In this document: in pieces, positions 17,579-27,323 of the stretch
Layout of the letters: every line of letters starts with the position of its first letter
How positions within the stretch are numbered: position 1 is the first letter of the stretch
Assembly (NCBI GenBank): GCA_026786275.1
Contig: JAJAYJ010000072.1
Location: 1-37,420, forward strand
DNA length: 37,420 bases
Direction of reading: 5' to 3'
DNA from: Nocardioides sp.
GTDB lineage: Bacteria > Actinomycetota > Actinomycetes > Propionibacteriales > Nocardioidaceae
Position numbers and translations under genes: made by a program
The notes under the pieces: generated by a model
The model's database searches: none
What the model saw: the letters and a program-made list of their open reading frames with translations, nothing else
Told to the model about the DNA's origin: nothing

Positions 17579-18484
17579 TCAGGAGGGCCGAGCTGCTCGG
17601 TGCGGCAGGACGTCGCGCCAGGAGTGCTGAGGGGCGTAGCCGAGGAGCTCGCGGGCTTTGTCGATGCAGTAGAACGTCTCGTCGTGCCCCATCTCGCGAC
17701 GCACCTCCACCCCGTCGTAGAAACGCTCCCGGATCTCCTGGGTCGACGCAGCCACGGACATGTCGGCGTTGGCGACATTGAAGACCTCATAGCCCAGCCC
17801 GTCGGTCTCCAGACAGCGTTGCGTGATCTGAGCGAGGTCACGGGTATCGATGTAGGCGAAGACGTTGCGGCGCCGCAACGACGGGTCGTCGAGGAAGGCC
17901 GGGAACAGCTCGGCGTACTCGTGCGGTTCGATGACGTTGTTGATCCGCAGGCCGTAGATGTCGGCGCCGGTGCGGGCCTGGAAGGAACGCGCGGTCACCT
18001 CACCCGCGACCTTCGACATGGCGTAGGCGTCCTCCGGGACCGTCGGGTGATCTTCGTCGACCGGCACGTACTCCGGTCGCCGCTCGCCCTGGGCGAAGCA
18101 GATCCCGTACGTCGTCTCGGAGGAGGCGAACACGATCTTGCGGATGCCGAGCCGCGTCGCGGCCTCGAGCACGTGGTAAGTGCTGAGGACGTTGGTCGCG
18201 TACGTCGTGCTGTCGGGCGCGAGCAGGATCCGCGGCAGCGCGGCGAAGTGCACCACGGCGTCGTACGCGGGCTGCTGCGCCAGCTCGAGCTCGGCCATCG
18301 TGGCGAGACCGGCCAGCGCGGAGTACGTCTCGCCCGCGTCGGTCAGGTCCACCCGCAGATCGGCCACCCCCGGGTGGTCCAGCGGGACGAGATCGGCGTT
18401 GGTGACGTGGTGGCCCTGGTCGGCGAGGTACGGCGCGACGTGCCTGCCGGCCTTGCCGCTGCCCCCGGTGAAGAAGATGCGCAT
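17579..18484 (-). CDS. NAD(P)-dependent epimerase/dehydratase (extended SDR)
   Basis: MRIFFTGGSGKAGRHVAPYLADQGH; YAMSK catalytic motif; GLRINNVIEP. Confidence 0.9.
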   Translation of the reverse strand: MRIFFTGGSGKAGRHVAPYLADQGHHVTNADLVPLDHPGVADLRVDLTDAGETYSALAGLATMAELELAQQPAYDAVVHFAALPRILLAPDSTTYATNVLSTYHVLEAATRLGIRKIVFASSETTYGICFAQGERRPEYVPVDEDHPTVPEDAYAMSKVAGEVTARSFQARTGADIYGLRINNVIEPHEYAELFPAFLDDPSLRRRNVFAYIDTRDLAQITQRCLETDGLGYEVFNVANADMSVAASTQEIRERFYDGVEVRREMGHDETFYCIDKARELLGYAPQHSWRDVLPHRAARPS

Positions 18485-18696
18485 GGCTGCCCCAACCACC
18501 TGGACCGTGCATTGCTTCCTCGTGCCGGCTCAGTCTGCTCCCCGACCGCCCCGGTCAGACGAGTAGCTCTCCACCATCACCCTCCGGCGGCAAGACGGTG
18601 CGGTCCGCTGGCACAGGAAACGCGGTGGTGGGTCTCAGGCTCCACGTGTCACCTCATGGAACGGAGGCGGGGCACCTGACGACGGACCAACCCGAC

Positions 18697-20436
18697 CTAC
18701 GCGCGGATGGCGTGCCGCAGTCGACGACTGATCAGCTCGACGGCGACGCTGACGGCGAACGAGGCGAGCAGCAGGGTGGTGACGACGGGGAACCGGAAGA
18801 AGTTGAGGTTGTCAGCCAGCAGTCGCCCCAGACCGGCGGCGCCGACGATGCCGACGACAGCGGTCTCGCGCACGCAGATCTCGAACCGGTAGAGCGTGTA
18901 GGTCACCAACTGCTGCGCCGATGCCGGTACGACGGCCGCGACCGTCGCCAGCGCGCCCGGCACTCCCGTGCGCACGAGGGCGTCCCGCGGCGCCGGGCTG
19001 ACCGACTCCCACGACTCGGCGACCAGGCGCCCCAGAACCCCACCGGTGTAGATCCCGAGCGCCAGCGCGCCGGGGAGGACTCCGGGGAAGAGTGCGAGCA
19101 ACGCGATCACCGCCCACACGGTCGGCGGCACCGAACGCAGGACCAGCAGCACCACGCGGGCGATGGCCCAGACGACCCACCGCACCGCTCGGGCGCCGAG
19201 GGGTGCTGGCGGTCCGCCGCTCCGCCGCGCCGCCACCGCCCACGGGGAGACGACCACCGTGATCAGCACCGCGATGCTCATCGCGAGCACCGCCATCGCC
19301 AGGGTGTCCAGCACCCCACCGGTCACGACCTGCCAGCCCGCGCTCGGCAGCGCAGGTGGCACCAGGTCCTCGAGGAGCCCGACGGTCAGCATCCGGGTGC
19401 GCTCGCTGGTGAGGCCGGACAACGAGACGCCCGACGCGATCCACGCGACGACCAGTCCGGGCACGACCGCGACCGCCGACCAGCGCGCCCACCGGGAGTG
19501 GGACCGTCGCGGGACCGAGGTGGTGCCCCCGGCCGACCACTCCGCGCAGCTCGCCACCGCCATGTCGGTGCGCAGCCGACCGCTCCAGGCGTCGACCAGC
19601 GCCGACAGCACGATCACCGCCGCGATGAGGGTCCAGACCTCGTCCCAGTTGCGCGAGCTGAGGCTGACCACCAGTTCCTGGCCGAGCCCGCCGACGCCGA
19701 CGGCGCCGAGCAGCACCGTCGAGCGCACCGCGCACTCGAAGCGGTAGAACGAGTAGGAGAGCATCAGCGGTCCCGCTGGGGGCAGCAGGGCGAAGACCAC
19801 CGCGGGCACGGCCGGCGCTCCCGCGTCACGCAGCGACCGCAGCGCTCGCGTCGGCAACGCGTCGAAGGTGTCCCCGAAGACCTGGGCGGTCTGCGCCCCG
19901 AACGGCAGCGCGATCGCGATGACCGCGACCAGGGGGTCGAGTCCGAGCACGCTGACGAGCAGCAGCGCCCAGACGAGCTCGTGCACGGACCTGATCGCGA
20001 CCAGGACGCCGCGCAGCAGGCCTCGTACGAGGCGCACCGGCAGGGGGGGTCGGCGCGACCAGGCGACGTCGCTGAGCACCAGCCCGCCCAGCAACCCGAT
20101 GACGAGTGCCCCGGCGGTGCCGAGCGCCGCGAACGCGAGCGTGGTGCCGGTTGCCTCGAGCACGACCCGGAGGAACTCGCCGTCCAGGCGCGGGCTGAGG
20201 GCCTTGGCCAGCAGATCCCCGATCAGTGGCACTCCGCCGGCGTTGACGACGTCGCTGTCCCCGGGAAGGGCACGCCGCAGGGCCCACAGGATCGGGAGCA
20301 GGATGATCAGCGCCCCGGCGACCCGGCGCAGCAGCACCTGACGTGCGCTCACCCGACCCGGTGGCCGCCGGTCGCCTGCGACGTCGGGGGCAGGGTCACG
20401 AGGCGGTCGGGAGCGGACGTCCAGCAGGTCGGTCAT
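18697..20436 (-). CDS. PhnE-type ABC transporter permease, two permease modules fused in one polypeptide
   Basis: 579 aa; two copies of the module (RSVHELVWALLLVSVLGLDPLVAVIAIALPFGA...YSFYRFECAVRSTVLLGAVGVGGLG and RSVPPTVWAVIALLALFPGVLPGALALGIYTGG...YTLYRFEICVRETAVVGIVGAAGLG). Confidence 0.88.
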   Translation of the reverse strand: MTDLLDVRSRPPRDPAPDVAGDRRPPGRVSARQVLLRRVAGALIILLPILWALRRALPGDSDVVNAGGVPLIGDLLAKALSPRLDGEFLRVVLEATGTTLAFAALGTAGALVIGLLGGLVLSDVAWSRRPPLPVRLVRGLLRGVLVAIRSVHELVWALLLVSVLGLDPLVAVIAIALPFGAQTAQVFGDTFDALPTRALRSLRDAGAPAVPAVVFALLPPAGPLMLSYSFYRFECAVRSTVLLGAVGVGGLGQELVVSLSSRNWDEVWTLIAAVIVLSALVDAWSGRLRTDMAVASCAEWSAGGTTSVPRRSHSRWARWSAVAVVPGLVVAWIASGVSLSGLTSERTRMLTVGLLEDLVPPALPSAGWQVVTGGVLDTLAMAVLAMSIAVLITVVVSPWAVAARRSGGPPAPLGARAVRWVVWAIARVVLLVLRSVPPTVWAVIALLALFPGVLPGALALGIYTGGVLGRLVAESWESVSPAPRDALVRTGVPGALATVAAVVPASAQQLVTYTLYRFEICVRETAVVGIVGAAGLGRLLADNLNFFRFPVVTTLLLASFAVSVAVELISRRLRHAIRA

Positions 20437-20513
20437 CGGCGTCTCACCGGCGATCCACCCTGCTGCTGGGTCGGTGACGGGGCCGGCTGCTCATCCGGTT
20501 GCTCATCCGGGCC

Positions 20514-21320
20514 TCAGGCCCGCGCGTAGAGGTCGTCGAGCGCGGCCGGGGGGAGGTCGTCGACGACGGCATCGAAGATCAGCCGGCCCTCACGCAGCCC
20601 GATGGCCCGGGTGCAGTGCTGTCGCGCCAGGAGGGGCTGGTGCAGCGTCACGACCAGCGCGCCGTCCGGGCGCGCCACGGGGCCGGCGTCGGGGTCGGCA
20701 TCGAGTCCGGTGCCGCGGCGTACGGCCTGGCCCAGGAGCGCGAGCACCTCGGAGGCCCGGGTCGGGTCGAGGCTGGCGACGGGCTCGTCGGCCAGGACGA
20801 GCTCGGGTCGCTGGATCAGCAGCCGGGCGATCGCGACCCGTTGCCGTTCCCCGCCGGAGAGCCGTTCGGTGCGCTCGTGGACCGCCCACTCGAGCCCGAC
20901 CGCCGTGAGAGCGTCGAGGGCCCGGCGGTCAGGCCGCGGCCACGCCAGCGAGGCCAGCGCCCGCGGCGTGCCCCACTCGGCCAGGCGACCGGCGTTGACG
21001 TTGTGGAGCACTCGCACCTGCTCGACCAGGTCCAAGCCCTGCGAGATGGTGCCCACCCGTCGCTGCAGCGCTCGACGCTCACGCGTGGACAACCCGGCCG
21101 GCGCCGAGCCGAGGATCTCCAGGCTGCCCTCGGAGGGTTCGAGGGAGCCGTTGAGCAGGGCGAGCAGGGTGCTCTTACCGGCGCCGCTGGGCCCCAGGAC
21201 CGCGACGCGCTCGCCCTGCCGGATCGTCAGGTCGACGCCGGCGAGCGCAGGGGTCGCCCCGAAGCGGCGGCCCACCCCCTGCAGCCGGACGACGACCTCA
21301 CCACTGGGTGTCTGGGTCAC
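20514..21320 (-). CDS. PhnC-type ABC transporter ATP-binding protein
   Basis: LGPSGAGKSTLL Walker A; LSGGERQRVAIARLL signature; LVLADEPVASLD Walker B. Confidence 0.92.
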   Translation of the reverse strand: MTQTPSGEVVVRLQGVGRRFGATPALAGVDLTIRQGERVAVLGPSGAGKSTLLALLNGSLEPSEGSLEILGSAPAGLSTRERRALQRRVGTISQGLDLVEQVRVLHNVNAGRLAEWGTPRALASLAWPRPDRRALDALTAVGLEWAVHERTERLSGGERQRVAIARLLIQRPELVLADEPVASLDPTRASEVLALLGQAVRRGTGLDADPDAGPVARPDGALVVTLHQPLLARQHCTRAIGLREGRLIFDAVVDDLPPAALDDLYARA

Positions 21321-22303
21321 GCGAGAAGGTCCAGCTCCTCAGCGACGTCACGGATCTTGTCGTAGTTGGCGTTCTCGGTCGGGATGAACGAGGCGGCCCC
21401 GAAGAGCTCCAGGATGGCTGCGTCCTCGGGCAGGGCCGGGTCGAGGCCGAAGAGCAGGTCCTTGATCGAGTCCAGCGTGCCGTCGCCGTACACCTCGTCG
21501 ATGTCGGGGCGGGCCAGCCAGTGGTAGTCGAAGTAGGGAGGGGTGCGGAAGAGCACCACGACCTGGGACACGTCGACCACCCCGGCCTCGACGGTGGCGT
21601 TCCAGACCTGCTCATTGACCGCACCCACCTCGAAGCTGCCGGAGGCGACGGCCTCGATGGTCGCGTCGTGGGAGCCCGAGAAGCCGGGCTCGCCCTGGAG
21701 GGCGTCGAGGGAGAGGCCGGCCTGGTCCATGAAGTACTGCGGCATCAGCCGACCCGAGGTCGAGGTCTCGCTGCCGAAGGTCAGCGACGAACCGGCGAGC
21801 TCGGTGAGCCCGGCGACGTCGTCGAACGGTGCGAGCCCGGACTCCTTGGTGGCGATGAAGAGGCTGGTGAACTCGGCGTCGATGTCGCGCTGGGCGAAGG
21901 CGACCGCGCCGTCCACCCGTTGTGCGGCCTGGACGCCGGTCAGTCCGCCCATCCAGGCGAGGTAGAGGTCGCCGACCTCGAAGCCACGGACGACGGCCGG
22001 GTACTCGGTCACCGGCGTGTAGGTCACCTCGAGCCCGGTCGCGTCGGCGAACCGGGCCGCCACGTCGCCGTACAGGCGGTTGAGGAGCTCGGGGTCCTGG
22101 TCCGGGATCGCCGAGATCGGCAACGGGTCGCTCGTCGGAGCTGAGCCACCCGTGCCGCCGCCCGTCGAGCTGTCGGTCCCGGCGGAGTCGTCGGTGCCGC
22201 ACGCGCCGAGGAGGAAGAGACCCGACGCCCCGAGGAAGAGGCCGCGTCGGCTGGTCGCGAGCCCTGGGGGCACGACGGTCGAGGAGGGAGGAGTGTGCTT
22301 CAT
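21317..22303 (-). CDS. PhnD-like substrate-binding lipoprotein, resembling 'putative selenate' ABC binding proteins
   Basis: MKHTPPSSTVVPPGLATSRRGLFLGASGLFLLGACG (RR + lipobox); SAIPDQDPELLNRLYGDVAARFADATGLEVTYTPVTEYPAVV; FGSETSTSGRLMPQYFM; TPPYFDYHWLARPDID; SFIPTENANYDKIRDVAEELDLL. Confidence 0.8.
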   Translation of the reverse strand: MKHTPPSSTVVPPGLATSRRGLFLGASGLFLLGACGTDDSAGTDSSTGGGTGGSAPTSDPLPISAIPDQDPELLNRLYGDVAARFADATGLEVTYTPVTEYPAVVRGFEVGDLYLAWMGGLTGVQAAQRVDGAVAFAQRDIDAEFTSLFIATKESGLAPFDDVAGLTELAGSSLTFGSETSTSGRLMPQYFMDQAGLSLDALQGEPGFSGSHDATIEAVASGSFEVGAVNEQVWNATVEAGVVDVSQVVVLFRTPPYFDYHWLARPDIDEVYGDGTLDSIKDLLFGLDPALPEDAAILELFGAASFIPTENANYDKIRDVAEELDLLA

Positions 22304-22346
22304 GGGCAGTGTCGCTTTCCGTGGTGCCAGCGGTGGGTCGGAGGGT

Positions 22347-23282
22347 TCAGGACGAGCTGACGAGCGGACTCTGGGGTGCGCTCGAGCGGGCCGGGGACCG
22401 CCCGACGAGGAGGGCGACCAGGGCGACCGAGAAATACACCGCCGCCGAGGTCGTGTTGCCACCGAGGATCGGGTCGGTGAACCCGAGCTGGGCGTGCAGG
22501 GAGAGCGCCGCGACCACGCCGAGGATCGCTGCGGCCCTCATCAGAGCGGGCCGCGCCATCCGGACCCCGACGAGCAGCAGCACGCCGACGACGACCAGCA
22601 CCAGCGACCCGAGGAGGTTGTAGGCGCCGAGCGAGAGCGACGGGTCGCTCGACCCGAGCAACGGACCAGTGGCGGCGAGGGGGTCGCCGACGGAGCGGAT
22701 GAGTGAGATCGCTCCCACGAGGACCGCGAGGCCACCCCAGACCTGGCCGAGCGTGCGCGCCGACGTGGTGCCGGCACGGACGCCGTCGGTGCCCAGGACC
22801 CGACCGGCGGCGGCGGAGACCAGCACCAGGTGGGCACCCACCATCAAGAAGTAGGACCAGGGCCACTCCTCGGGGGCGTACGCCACCGAGAGCCCGATCG
22901 CGAGCGACTGGGCGAGCCCCAGCAGCGCGGCCAACCGCACGTAGGTGCCGGTCAGCAGCATCACGGCCAGGGCGGTCTCGGCGATGAGCACGACCCAGCC
23001 GAACACGGGGAAGACCGGCAGGATGAGGTGCTCGCTCACCCACGCGTACGGCGCCAGCACCGGGTAGTCGACGGCGTACACGGTGTACTTGTAGAGCCCG
23101 TTGCCCGCGTCCTGACCGAAGTCGGGCGCACGCTTCCAGGACACGTTGTACAACCACATCAGGCCCAGCAGGATCCGCAGCACCGCGAAGGCGACCGACT
23201 GGGCACGGGCGTTGTCCTCGGGCGTGGGGTCGAACACCCAGCCAAGCGGGTTGCGGGCCGTCACCGGCCGTCCCTCACGCAC
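22347..23282 (-). CDS. DoxX / TQO small-subunit DoxD-like membrane protein
   Basis: Multi-TM; AVLRILLGLMWLYNVSWKRAPDFGQDAGNGLYKYTVYAVDYPVLAPYAWVSEHLILPVFPVFGWVVLIAETALAVMLLTGTYVRLAALLGLAQSLAIGLSVAYAPEEWPWSYFLMVGAHL; overlaps end of rSAM gene. Confidence 0.78.
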   Translation of the reverse strand: MREGRPVTARNPLGWVFDPTPEDNARAQSVAFAVLRILLGLMWLYNVSWKRAPDFGQDAGNGLYKYTVYAVDYPVLAPYAWVSEHLILPVFPVFGWVVLIAETALAVMLLTGTYVRLAALLGLAQSLAIGLSVAYAPEEWPWSYFLMVGAHLVLVSAAAGRVLGTDGVRAGTTSARTLGQVWGGLAVLVGAISLIRSVGDPLAATGPLLGSSDPSLSLGAYNLLGSLVLVVVGVLLLVGVRMARPALMRAAAILGVVAALSLHAQLGFTDPILGGNTTSAAVYFSVALVALLVGRSPARSSAPQSPLVSSS

Positions 23283-24387
23283 AGCGGAACACCTCTCGTC
23301 CGGCCGCCGAAGCGGCGTCCTGGACCTTCAACGTGTCGCGCACGACCCCGAAGATCTCCTCGAGGTCGAGGGGCGCGTCGGCGATCCTCATGTGCGGGTT
23401 CGTCACCGCGACCGGGTGCCACCAGGCACCGTCCGCGGTGATAACCGGCTCGGGCTCGAGGGAGTCGATCGAGACGTGGATGCCGCCGTCGGCGAAGCCC
23501 TCGGCCGCGACCGGCCGGATCACCCGGTCCTCGGCGGCGATGCCTTCAGCGTCGAGACGCTCGTGCAGCTCCCGCACTCCCTCCGGGTCCTCGTCGAAGC
23601 GAGTGGCTGCGATCTTGACCCGGAAACCCAGTGAGTTGGCCAGGGCAATCCCGTCGAGGGCACGTGTCCACGAACCGGCGCCTCGCATCTTGTCGTGGAT
23701 CTCCGGCGTCGCAGAGTCGAGGCTGACCTGCATGACCACGTCGCGGTCGATCGACTCCAGGAGCTCACGGCGGCGGCCACGCCCGAAGATCATCGCGTTG
23801 GTGAGGATCGTGCGCTCGAGACCGGCGGCGGCATCGACGATCTCCCCGAGCTGTGGGTGCATGAAGGGCTCGCCGCCGGTGAGGAGCAGCTCCTTGCCGC
23901 CCTGCTCGCGGAACTCGGCGAACAGAGGCCGCATCACGTCGGGATCGAGGCGACGGGCATCGGCCTTCGGCGAGGACTCTGCGCAGCAGTACAGGCAGGC
24001 GAGGTTGCAGTCGAAGTTGGTGTAGGCCCACAGGCGGTGACCGACCGGCGTTCGGTCGCCGATGCTGAAGACCGTCCCGGCATCGGGTTGGGCGTCGTCC
24101 ACGGCCCTGGCCCCGTCCTTGCGGACCGAGAACCACCACGGGCCGGCCGTGGTCTCTGCCAGGTGGTCTGCGACCTCGTGTCCGACCAGCTCGGCCCAGA
24201 CCGGCAGGTCGGTGACGACACTGGCCTCGGCACTGCGGATCGCGAGCACGTCTCCCGCCTCGAGGCGGCGCATGGCGCGGGTGATGAGGAGCAGCAGACC
24301 GCTGCCGCAGTCCATGTCGCCCCCGTCGATCAGCTTGGCGACATCGCCGAGCGGGGTGCTGGTCGGTAACGTAGTTGTCTGGGACAC
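23275..24387 (-). CDS. Radical SAM protein with N-terminal TusA-like domain
   Basis: N-term DCGSGLLLLITRAMRRLEAGDVLAIRSAEASVVTDLPVWAELVGHEVADHLAE (TusA/SirA-like); FDCNLACLYCC (CxxxCxxC), LLTGGEPFMHPQL; GTG start. Confidence 0.85.
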   Translation of the reverse strand: MSQTTTLPTSTPLGDVAKLIDGGDMDCGSGLLLLITRAMRRLEAGDVLAIRSAEASVVTDLPVWAELVGHEVADHLAETTAGPWWFSVRKDGARAVDDAQPDAGTVFSIGDRTPVGHRLWAYTNFDCNLACLYCCAESSPKADARRLDPDVMRPLFAEFREQGGKELLLTGGEPFMHPQLGEIVDAAAGLERTILTNAMIFGRGRRRELLESIDRDVVMQVSLDSATPEIHDKMRGAGSWTRALDGIALANSLGFRVKIAATRFDEDPEGVRELHERLDAEGIAAEDRVIRPVAAEGFADGGIHVSIDSLEPEPVITADGAWWHPVAVTNPHMRIADAPLDLEEIFGVVRDTLKVQDAASAAGREVFRCA

Positions 24388-24432
24388 ACAGCAAACCTAC
24401 GGGAACTGCCGATACCGGGGGGCGAACACTCA

Positions 24433-24446
24433 TCACGAAGTCGTGA
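24433..24446. promoter_or_regulatory. Candidate operator TCACGA-AG-TCGTGA between divergent rSAM and methyltransferase genes
   Basis: Perfect 6-bp arms, 2-nt spacer, in the ~108-bp divergent intergenic region. Confidence 0.4.
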
Positions 24447-24496
24447 CGGGATGCCGCCGGCTGCGCCCCCGCCTGGCTGCGGGCTATCGTCACACG

Positions 24497-25144
24497 ATGG
24501 TCGACGCCGAGCTGTACCGCCCTGAAGACGCCGCCGCTCGGTCGGACTACTGGGAGAACGTCCACGACGGCAAGGACGTCGACGGGGTCTCGTGGTGGCA
24601 GTCGGTGCCGGAGCTGTCGCTGGGGTTGGTCGACGAGACGGGCCTGGGGATCGACAGCGCCGTGATCGACGTGGGCGCCGGCTGGTCCACCCTCGTCGAC
24701 CACCTCGTCGAGCGTGGCTACACCGACCTCACGGCGATCGACCTGTCGGTGACCGCGCTCACCACGGTGCGCGAGCGCGTGGGAGAGATCCCCGGACGGC
24801 TCGATCTCGATGTCGCCGATGTCCTCGACTTCCGGCCGCCCCGCACGTTCGCCTTGTGGCACGACCGGGCGGTCTTCCACTTCCTCACCGAGCAGGACGA
24901 GCGCGACGACTACCGGCTCTCGCTCGCACACTGCCTGGAGCCCGGCGGCTTCGTGGTGATCGCCACCTTCGGTCCCGACGGCCCGCTGACCTGCAGCGGG
25001 CTGCCGATCGTGCGCTACACCCATGAGGAGCTCGCCGCCGAGTTCCCCGACTACCGACTGCTCTCGACCAGCGGCGAGGACCACGTCACGCCCTGGGGCA
25101 CGCGCCAGCAGTTCACCGCGATCCTGCTGCAGCACGAGGCCTGA
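24497..25144 (+). CDS. Class I SAM-dependent methyltransferase
   Basis: MVDAELYRPEDAAARSDYWENVHDGKDVDGVSWWQSVPELSLGLVDETGLGIDSAVIDVGAGWSTLVDHLVERGYTDLTAIDLS...WHDRAVFHFLTEQDERDDYRLSL (within longer ORF 24062..25144). Confidence 0.88.
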   Translation: MVDAELYRPEDAAARSDYWENVHDGKDVDGVSWWQSVPELSLGLVDETGLGIDSAVIDVGAGWSTLVDHLVERGYTDLTAIDLSVTALTTVRERVGEIPGRLDLDVADVLDFRPPRTFALWHDRAVFHFLTEQDERDDYRLSLAHCLEPGGFVVIATFGPDGPLTCSGLPIVRYTHEELAAEFPDYRLLSTSGEDHVTPWGTRQQFTAILLQHEA

Positions 25145-25430: not shown

Positions 25431-27323
25431 TCAGAGCGCACTCGACACGGGGGGGCTGTCCGGGGCGCGGCGGTAGTCGGGCAGTGGACGCGCGGGCTCG
25501 GACTGGAGCAGCATCACCGGGTTGCTGAAGGCGACGCGCCGGCCGGTCGCGTCGACAACGTTGAGCCGGACGAAGCATGATTGTGTTGCGTCGATCCCAA
25601 CGGTTGCTTGGCCCGCGGTGAAAGCGGTACTGGGCAGAGTCGTCACCACCGCAGTCCCCGGGTCGAGGCTGTTGCTGTAGTCCACCGGGCCGCGGACGAC
25701 CTCTACGTAGGAGCCGGTCGAAAGGTCCAGCGCCGTGACGGTCAGCTCACGAGAACGAGCCCCGGGTTTGATGGACACCGATCCCATCGGGTTGCCCTCG
25801 ACGCTTGCGTTGAGGTAACCGTTGAACGCGCCAAGCTCACCGACAAAGACCTGACCGCGCCTTAGTGCTGCCAGAAGATCGGCCTCGGAGGACGACGCCG
25901 CCCAGGTAGTGGTAAAGAACCGGTTCGGATCCTTCGCCCAAGACCCACTGGTTCCCGCGTGGTTGTCGTTGACGCCTGTGGCTGTCACCCAGAACCCGTT
26001 ACGGATGAAGGTGTCAAAGAGCCCAAGATGTGTCTCGAGACCCATTCCGGAGCGCTGACGGAAGCCAGACTCCACGATATCGACACCGCCCACCTCCCGG
26101 TTCAAGAAGCGACTCGCCACAGATCGACGCTGCGTGTCCTGCTGAGCTTGTGAGACGAGCGCTCCTGTGCCGCTTCCGAAGGGATGGTTCAGCGCAGCTA
26201 GTCCCCCGCCCTGATGAATCAGGTTCGAAGCGTAGGCAACAATGTCCGTGGGCTTTGTTGTCTGGTGCTGGATAAGGTGCTGCTCCCCGCCGAACCAGTT
26301 GACATGCTCGGATGATGTGGAGACCTCGACGCCGCGGCCAACGGCTAGCCGCGGGTACTGCTCGACATACTGGCGCACCATGTCGCTTTGCGTCTGCAGC
26401 GGCTGGTCGCCCGCCGTTGACGTCCTGTTGAACCGTAGGTATCCGAAGTAGGCGCGGGCTAGCGTCTTGGCCTGGCTGGTGACACCTAGCCGCAGATCGA
26501 CGAGTGCGTTGTCTGTGGCCACGATGTCGGGCCAGATGGCGGCAATATCGGACGCCATGTCAAGGGTGAGAGTGGTGAACGCTCCAGGCGGCGCCTGGAT
26601 CGTGACGACCCCGAGGAGGCCCTGTGCCGTTCGGCTGGGCGCCGCCGTTCCGACCCGGTAGGAAAGCTGACAACTGCCCGCTAGACGTCCCGCCGTTGCC
26701 GGCCGGTACGACAAGGTGATCAGGACCTCGGCCCACGCGTTCGGGCCGATGAGGTCCGGGAAGACGTCCAGTAGCAGCTGCTGGCCGGCGACATTGGTGC
26801 GCTGGCACTTGTTGGCGGCGATCCCGTCCATGAGGCAGCGACGGGACGCGGCGGCACTGCCTGAGCTGGTGGCCTCGACTTTGAGCGACCCCTTTGAGCC
26901 ACTCGGATCAGCAGGACTGGTCGGCGCGCTCACGATGCCGGTCGACGAGGAGGCCAGAGACCCAGAGGTCGCCGGTTTCCACGTATATGAGCCGCCTTCT
27001 ACGACCTCCGTCAGCCCAGTGAAGTGGAACTCACGAGGCGCCCGGTGCGCGCTCATGCGCCAGTCGTGATCGGTTGGCCAGAACACGTCGAAGCCATTTC
27101 GCGCTGCCTCTTCCAGCTGACTGTGCAAGCTCGCCGTGCCCTCGCTGAAGCTGGTGTGCACATGCATAGCCCCGCGCAGAGCTGTCATGTTTCCGATCAT
27201 CGGTGCGGTCAGCGCCGGACCCAGTGCAAGCGCTTCGCCGCCAAAGGCGGCCAGACCTGACGCGCCCACCACTTGCAAGAAGTCCCGCCGAGAGATGTCT
27301 CGGGACCCAAGAGAATTCACCAT
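25431..27323 (-). CDS. TAT-exported PHP-domain protein (predicted metal-dependent phosphoesterase)
   Basis: SRRDFLQVVGASGLAAFG TAT signal; GAMHVHTSFSEGTASLHSQLEEAARNGFDVFWPTDHDWR PHP motifs; ALNHPFG; beta-rich C-terminus. Confidence 0.8.
   Translation of the reverse strand: MVNSLGSRDISRRDFLQVVGASGLAAFGGEALALGPALTAPMIGNMTALRGAMHVHTSFSEGTASLHSQLEEAARNGFDVFWPTDHDWRMSAHRAPREFHFTGLTEVVEGGSYTWKPATSGSLASSSTGIVSAPTSPADPSGSKGSLKVEATSSGSAAASRRCLMDGIAANKCQRTNVAGQQLLLDVFPDLIGPNAWAEVLITLSYRPATAGRLAGSCQLSYRVGTAAPSRTAQGLLGVVTIQAPPGAFTTLTLDMASDIAAIWPDIVATDNALVDLRLGVTSQAKTLARAYFGYLRFNRTSTAGDQPLQTQSDMVRQYVEQYPRLAVGRGVEVSTSSEHVNWFGGEQHLIQHQTTKPTDIVAYASNLIHQGGGLAALNHPFGSGTGALVSQAQQDTQRRSVASRFLNREVGGVDIVESGFRQRSGMGLETHLGLFDTFIRNGFWVTATGVNDNHAGTSGSWAKDPNRFFTTTWAASSSEADLLAALRRGQVFVGELGAFNGYLNASVEGNPMGSVSIKPGARSRELTVTALDLSTGSYVEVVRGPVDYSNSLDPGTAVVTTLPSTAFTAGQATVGIDATQSCFVRLNVVDATGRRVAFSNPVMLLQSEPARPLPDYRRAPDSPPVSSAL

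Follow-up and report, generated by a model that had tools for sequence, protein, structure and literature searches.

Known systems and the window cluster

According to a 2026 review, no specific, high-affinity transporter for selenium is so far known from prokaryotes (PMC13188914). The family TIGR04553 bears the name "putative selenate ABC transporter substrate-binding protein", and here we describe a gene cluster of Nocardioides sp. in which an importer of this family stands beside a radical S-adenosylmethionine (SAM) enzyme fused to a TusA-like domain, a DoxX/DoxD-like membrane protein and a divergent methyltransferase. The cluster lies in a DNA stretch of 37,420 nucleotides, hereafter the window (GenBank assembly GCA_026786275.1, contig JAJAYJ010000072.1).

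Parts of this cluster recur in systems that have already been described. The selenoneine cluster SenA-SenB-SelD, when found with a TIGR04553 importer (for example in Haloechinothrix, locus L157), shares the importer family and the fused permease type. The window cluster differs from it in lacking SenA and SenB, in the absence of SelD from most members, and in having the radical SAM-TusA, DoxX and methyltransferase genes. Marine picocyanobacterial PhnD1CE (structures 7S6G and 5LQ5) shares the TIGR04553-type clade and an identical binding pocket with the window PhnD, whereas its neighbours include no radical SAM, DoxX or methyltransferase gene, and its authors call it a phosphate transporter (PMC10284923). 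In Mycobacterium tuberculosis, the row Rv1678-Rv1679 (FadE16)-Rv1680-Rv1681 (NF049986, NF049984, NF049985, NF049973) has homologous radical SAM and DoxX-like proteins, and a PhnD-like protein is found in both clusters. In that branch, however, PhnDCE is replaced by FadE16 and the substrate-binding-protein-like Rv1680, which has neither a signal peptide (judged by eye) nor the pocket residues; the TusA cysteine is missing, and no methyltransferase adjoins in the loci read. FadE16 itself scores 94 bits against SfnB and 113 bits against sulfinate desulfinase, both under cut-off.

Two sugar pathways also invite comparison. The arsenosugar pathway (ArsM, ArsS and the TIGR04282/TIGR04283 transferases) follows a similar logic of methyltransferase, radical SAM enzyme, nucleoside phosphorylase, DUF2064 and GT2 proteins, and loci related to ours often have genes for the last three in or near them, but the window radical SAM enzyme falls outside the ArsS family. 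To our knowledge the arsenosugar pathway has no counterpart of the TusA-like domain or of the importer. Arsenic is adenosylated by the radical SAM enzyme ArsS, according to work cited in PMC12159101. The other pathway is that of methylthioxylose (MTX), in which Rv0539 (MtxS) and Rv0541c (MtxT) serve the MTX capping of lipoarabinomannan (PMC8780516) and methylthioadenosine is the source of MTX (PMC11127046). A similarly composed cassette sits on another contig of the window genome (L193), whereas many genomes have the MTX cassette and no such radical SAM gene. The literature searched gave no role of Rv1681 in MTX.

A conserved cluster around a TIGR04553 importer

Querying the contigs of one genome per species with the window binding protein yielded 80 loci, and we took as a set the 23 genomes, the window and L077 included, in which the gene for the TusA-radical SAM fusion adjoins phnD. 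The cluster thus recurs in 22 sampled actinobacterial genomes besides the window, its gene order kept, and this adjacency spans at least five families, with hosts that include Nocardioides, Streptomyces, Micromonospora, Phycicoccus, Blastococcus, Geodermatophilus and a metagenome-assembled Mycolicibacterium. The remaining transporter genes are visible in 22 of the 23 loci (the contig of L130 ends inside PhnD), the DoxX gene in all but the truncated L115, and the methyltransferase in all but L115 and L108. Such recurrence is beyond chance, and the linkage of radical SAM, DoxX and PhnCDE genes that the earlier note had seen in the window alone is therefore kept outside it. Both key families are rare, the Rv1681-type radical SAM being present in 12 and TIGR04553 over cut-off in three of 297 genomes sampled from the class. 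Each genome of the clade has a single TIGR04553 gene over cut-off, the cluster copy, to which one (G620) adds a partial match under cut-off. A literature search returned no paper on this gene combination; the cluster is conserved and, as far as the searched literature shows, undescribed.

Against TIGR04553 the window PhnD scores 303.5 bits (cut-off 250), and against the phosphonate-binding family TIGR03431 only 95.8 (cut-off 261.1), which bears out its earlier placement among the selenate-type proteins on the motifs TPPYFDYHW and FIPT..NY.KI, both of which are present. By eye, it has a twin-arginine-like motif (SRRGLF) and an LGAC lipobox. Its nearest solved homologues are 7S6G (50% identical) and 5LQ5 (40%), which prefer phosphite to phosphate or methylphosphonate as a ligand (PMC5700983, PMC10284923). 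In Prochlorococcus PhnD, phosphite is held by ten residues (D13, Y46, F90, S126, T127, S128, H158, N176, D205 and Y206; PMC5700983). The window protein keeps every one of them, as do 78 of 84 rows of the family, whereas Rv1680-like proteins do not. When many ligands were tried on picocyanobacterial proteins phosphite was best, yet the tested strains cannot live on phosphite as sole phosphorus source (PMC10284923). Selenium is not mentioned in the text of PMC5700983 or the main text of PMC10284923, and no selenium-binding data for any TIGR04553 member were found in the literature. Phosphonate uptake as the main function was rejected on the PhnD score together with the absence of the C-P lyase gene phnJ from all 23 genomes.

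In the tree, the 23 binding proteins linked to the radical SAM enzyme form a single clade (support 100/100), nested among SelD-linked proteins of actinobacterial, chloroflexal and cyanobacterial origin. Because of this nesting, and because all ten pocket positions are unchanged, the shape of the ligand is unlikely to have changed much, and the ligand of the clade is probably still a pyramidal XO3 ion or near it. Selenite would fit the pocket as well as phosphite does; selenate would be less apt than a pyramidal ion of this kind. Judged from family membership and gene order, a TIGR04553 importer of selenium-linked ancestry shares one operon, as a fixed arrangement, with a radical SAM enzyme that has a TusA domain; a DoxX/DoxD-like protein and a divergent methyltransferase almost always accompany them.

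Outside this clade the ties to selenium are close. TIGR04553 relatives there adjoin SelD, SenA and SenB, all of which were over cut-off in the scanned examples (L157, L092). SelD is encoded in 48 of 58 such genomes, or 48 of 49 when nine marine picocyanobacteria are set aside, and in all 21 other sampled Actinomycetota with TIGR04553. Within the clade it is found in 5 of 23 genomes, near the class background of 80/297; compared with the other actinobacterial genomes this gives a Fisher p of about 3e-8, on counts that ignore kinship. The earlier note had proposed a search for selD in the window's own genome, and none was found in that assembly, which is 78% complete. SenA and SenB are in none of the 23 clusters read, and with neither gene there selenoneine biosynthesis was rejected as a reading of the clusters. 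The idea of selenium as the business of the TIGR04553 importer family is better supported than we expected, and the missing SelD in 18 of 23 genomes is the tension for this clade, and its most interesting point.

Two sets of related loci deserve mention here. In the picocyanobacterial loci L168-L170, L173, L175, L179, L180, L183 and L184 (Synechococcus, Prochlorococcus), PhnD1 falls in one TIGR04553-type clade with the SelD/SenAB-linked importers, but true SelD is absent; the SelD-like matches are the TIGR04369 'not SelD' fusion in the three that were checked (939-960 bits over 700), and four further genomes were assigned to that fusion by their low SelD scores. A Pseudonocardia locus (L182, 6733-14346) holds SelD, an AhpD-like gene, a TusA-less Rv1681-like radical SAM gene, PhnDCE and a second type of methyltransferase, and is possibly a SelD-dependent version of the same idea.

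The radical SAM enzyme scores 72.7 bits against Radical_SAM PF04055 and 322 bits against the Rv1681 family NF049973, under the equivalog cut-off of 380; by these scores it is a close sister of that family, not an equivalog. With 53 of 300 bits against TIGR04167, membership of ArsS was rejected. Beside the cluster-binding CxxxCxxC it has a fourth cysteine, and nearly all members end in F-x-C-A/T. Among the fold-search matches are DesII and BlsE, whose substrates are sugars or a sugar nucleoside. As for the fused domain (residues 18-89), earlier described as TusA-like, the carrier-type cysteine is kept, the modelled order beta-alpha-beta-alpha-beta-beta is that of TusA, and the domain aligns with the stand-alone TusA of related loci, which passes PF01206 (30.7 bits); the PF01206 score of the fused domain itself, 21.5 bits, stays under the cut-off of 28.6. 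Among the aligned proteins the carrier cysteine (in MDCGSG) is kept in those linked to the importer or to TusA/DsrE genes and is missing from the sampled FadE16/Rv1680-linked branch, that of M. tuberculosis Rv1681. One locus (L108) has DoxX, TusA, DsrE, radical SAM and PhnDCE genes in a single row. In L018-L022, of the same phylum, an Rv1681-like radical SAM domain shares one frame with a domain that by eye looks like a metallophosphatase, most of these proteins having a C-terminal Cys-Ala.

As for the DoxX/DoxD-like label, the window protein matches the Rv1678 C-terminal family NF049986 well over its cut-off of 50 bits, and a shorter homologue (L027) matches DoxD PF04173 at 35.3 bits (cut-off 22.7), but the window protein itself has no Pfam match, DoxD PF04173 and DoxX PF07681 included. 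The methyltransferase, which escaped the earlier note, is the sixth gene of the unit; nearly all members have a copy beside the same operon, 65-91% identical, and its fold search was unspecific, with class I methyltransferases, TehB and thiol methyltransferases among many that scored alike.

All five minus-strand open reading frames (18697-24387) were found where the earlier note had placed them, co-directional and tightly spaced: the radical SAM and DoxX-like genes overlap by 8 nt, 43 nt separate DoxX from PhnD, PhnD and PhnC overlap by 4 nt, and 77 nt lie between PhnC and PhnE. The divergent intergenic region is probably a shared promoter region for both directions; no conserved motif, promoter match or terminator match was found in it.

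Table 1. Features of the cluster, in window coordinates.
Feature	Position	Strand	Details
TusA-like domain/radical SAM fusion	23275..24387	-	370 aa, Rv1681-like; CNLACLYCC core, C-terminal FRCA, TusA-like cysteine in MDCGSG
DoxX/DoxD-like membrane protein, Rv1678 type	22347..23282	-	311 aa; NF049986 84.7 bits
Substrate-binding lipoprotein (PhnD), TIGR04553	21317..22303	-	ATG at 22303; TIGR04553 303.5 bits
PhnC-type ABC ATPase	20514..21320	-	TIGR02315 187.9 bits, under cut-off 266.1; ABC_tran PF00005
PhnE-type fused double permease	18697..20436	-	579 aa, two permease domains; TIGR01097 284.2 bits over 216.7 in two stretches; PF00528 in two stretches
Class I SAM methyltransferase	24497..25144	+	divergent; Methyltransf_25 36.1 bits
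Divergent intergenic region	24388..24496		109 nt, radical SAM start to methyltransferase

An NAD-dependent epimerase-like gene (17579-18499, minus strand) lies downstream of PhnE and was dropped as a member of the operon, the clusters of relatives not being flanked by it. On the other side, the gene at 25431-27323 (minus strand) encodes a large secreted protein, unrelated to the operon, that has a TAT-type start and the PHP-like motif HVHTSFSEG.

Links to a sugar cassette

A TIGR04282-like (DUF2064) gene is present in all 23 genomes of the clade and in all 12 genomes of the class sample with an Rv1681-type radical SAM enzyme, against a background of 131/297 (kinship ignored). In all eight cases read it sits in an MTX-type sugar cassette: the window's own genome has DUF2064, GT2, GT-C, galE-like and MTAP genes together in a full cassette (contig C31, L193), and the seven further cassettes each hold at least GT2, GT-C and galE-like genes. 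In three loci (L017, L098, L102) the radical SAM, DoxX, FadE16 and Rv1680 genes stand side by side with MTAP, galE-like, GT2 and DUF2064 genes; by their order we take these sugar genes to correspond to the M. tuberculosis Rv0535-Rv0541c set. A GT2/DUF2064 pair adjoins the radical SAM and PhnDCE genes in L114 and L151, and a nucleoside phosphorylase gene (PF01048) lies near the cluster or PhnDCE in L117, L131, L140 and L154. These links, like the kinship with Rv1678 and Rv1681, go beyond the earlier note. Three further loci of the same phylum (L026, L027, L028) and one on a shorter contig (L023) combine AhpD-like, radical SAM and, except in L028, DoxX genes with a GT2/DUF2064 pair, which strongly recalls arsenosugar clusters.

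A possible chalcogen pathway and its rivals

Our preferred reading, held tentatively and at less than even confidence, is that all six genes work as a unit to take up a chalcogen oxyanion, for which selenite is the likeliest candidate, and to incorporate it into a small molecule. The chemistry beyond gene content is what we infer. The lipoprotein would capture a pyramidal XO3 anion, which the ABC transporter would import and cellular thiols would reduce; the TusA-like cysteine might carry the chalcogen as a persulfide or perselenide, from which the radical SAM domain could form a C-S or C-Se bond, possibly via adenosyl transfer like that of ArsS. The methyltransferase would then cap the chalcogen, and a nucleoside phosphorylase of the MTA type, together with the MTX-type cassette, might turn the product into a chalcogen-sugar. 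The DoxX protein could act as membrane redox partner, and the Rv1678-1681 type may be a related branch that has neither importer nor carrier cysteine. A more specific form, which we consider improbable, is a SelD-independent selenium pathway in which the TusA-like domain holds the selenium of imported selenite as a perselenide, the radical SAM enzyme links this to C5' of adenosine, and methylation, phosphorolysis and the MTX-type cassette lead to a methylseleno-sugar that may sit on the cell wall.

Several observations weigh against the uptake and incorporation of a chalcogen. With SelD in only 5 of the 23 genomes, standard selenium use is not the reason that the importer is kept there. The picocyanobacteria, likewise devoid of true SelD, have binding proteins that take phosphite and phosphate, and since the pocket that is identical to that of the window PhnD binds phosphite in its solved relatives, the substrate of the window importer is not proven. 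The radical SAM enzyme has no specific match to ArsS and its structural model is of middling confidence (pLDDT, predicted local distance difference test, 73); the MTX-type cassette is far commoner than the radical SAM gene, and therefore does not need it. Finally, the predicted binding and chemistry of the chalcogen are themselves inferred. The earlier note's proposal, import of a sulfur or selenium oxyanion and its processing by the TusA-radical SAM protein, gains from the ties of the family to selenium genes and is strained by the phosphite-binding homologues and the scarcity of SelD.

A sulfur version of the pathway, with sulfite or thiosulfate imported and the TusA-radical SAM protein placing sulfur in an MTX-like thiosugar or thionucleoside, seems to us rather unlikely. 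It would account for the presence of TusA, DsrE and DoxD, which are sulfur-trafficking families, for the thiosugar made by the M. tuberculosis cassette, and for the resemblance of FadE16 in the sister branch to SfnB and sulfinate desulfinase, sub-threshold as those scores are. The relatives of the importer, however, are tied to selenium genes and not to sulfur genes, and a dedicated oxyanion importer would be harder to explain because cells already contain sulfide and cysteine.

It is unlikely, too, that the importer clade has left selenium and imports a phosphorus oxyanion (phosphite or phosphate), with the link to the radical SAM and DoxX genes serving to provide phosphorus or a product containing it. 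The preference of 7S6G and 5LQ5, the fact that their own lineage has just a SelD-related fusion rather than SelD, and the background frequency of SelD in the clade all fit such a shift. Yet no phosphonate catabolic gene lies nearby, as the earlier note had already seen, and phnJ is absent as stated above (phosphite dehydrogenase was not searched for); phosphorus gives no evident reason for a TusA-like carrier domain, for TusA/DsrE relatives or for a DoxD-like protein; and in all the other actinobacterial lineages that were sampled, SelD accompanies the importer.

Least convincing is the proposal, distinctly unlikely in our view, that the radical SAM and DoxX proteins mature or modify an MTX-type cell-wall sugar (for example by epimerisation or deoxygenation) with the importer and the TusA-like domain incidental, as the constant DUF2064 gene, the side-by-side gene sets of L017, L098 and L102 and the DesII and BlsE fold matches might suggest, for the adjacency to the importer is kept across 23 genomes and the TusA cysteine, among the aligned proteins, occurs only with the importer or TusA/DsrE genes.

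To conclude, the context data make TIGR04553 a concrete candidate for a selenium transporter, one clade of which has been uncoupled from SelD and has moved to a radical SAM enzyme with a domain resembling a chalcogen carrier. This bears on the role of picocyanobacterial PhnD1. For M. tuberculosis, the co-occurrence with methylthioxylose genes gives Rv1678-Rv1681, homologues without a known function, a testable hypothesis. If true, a SelD-independent pathway would be a second way of making small molecules that contain selenium, and it would hint at what M. tuberculosis Rv1681 does.

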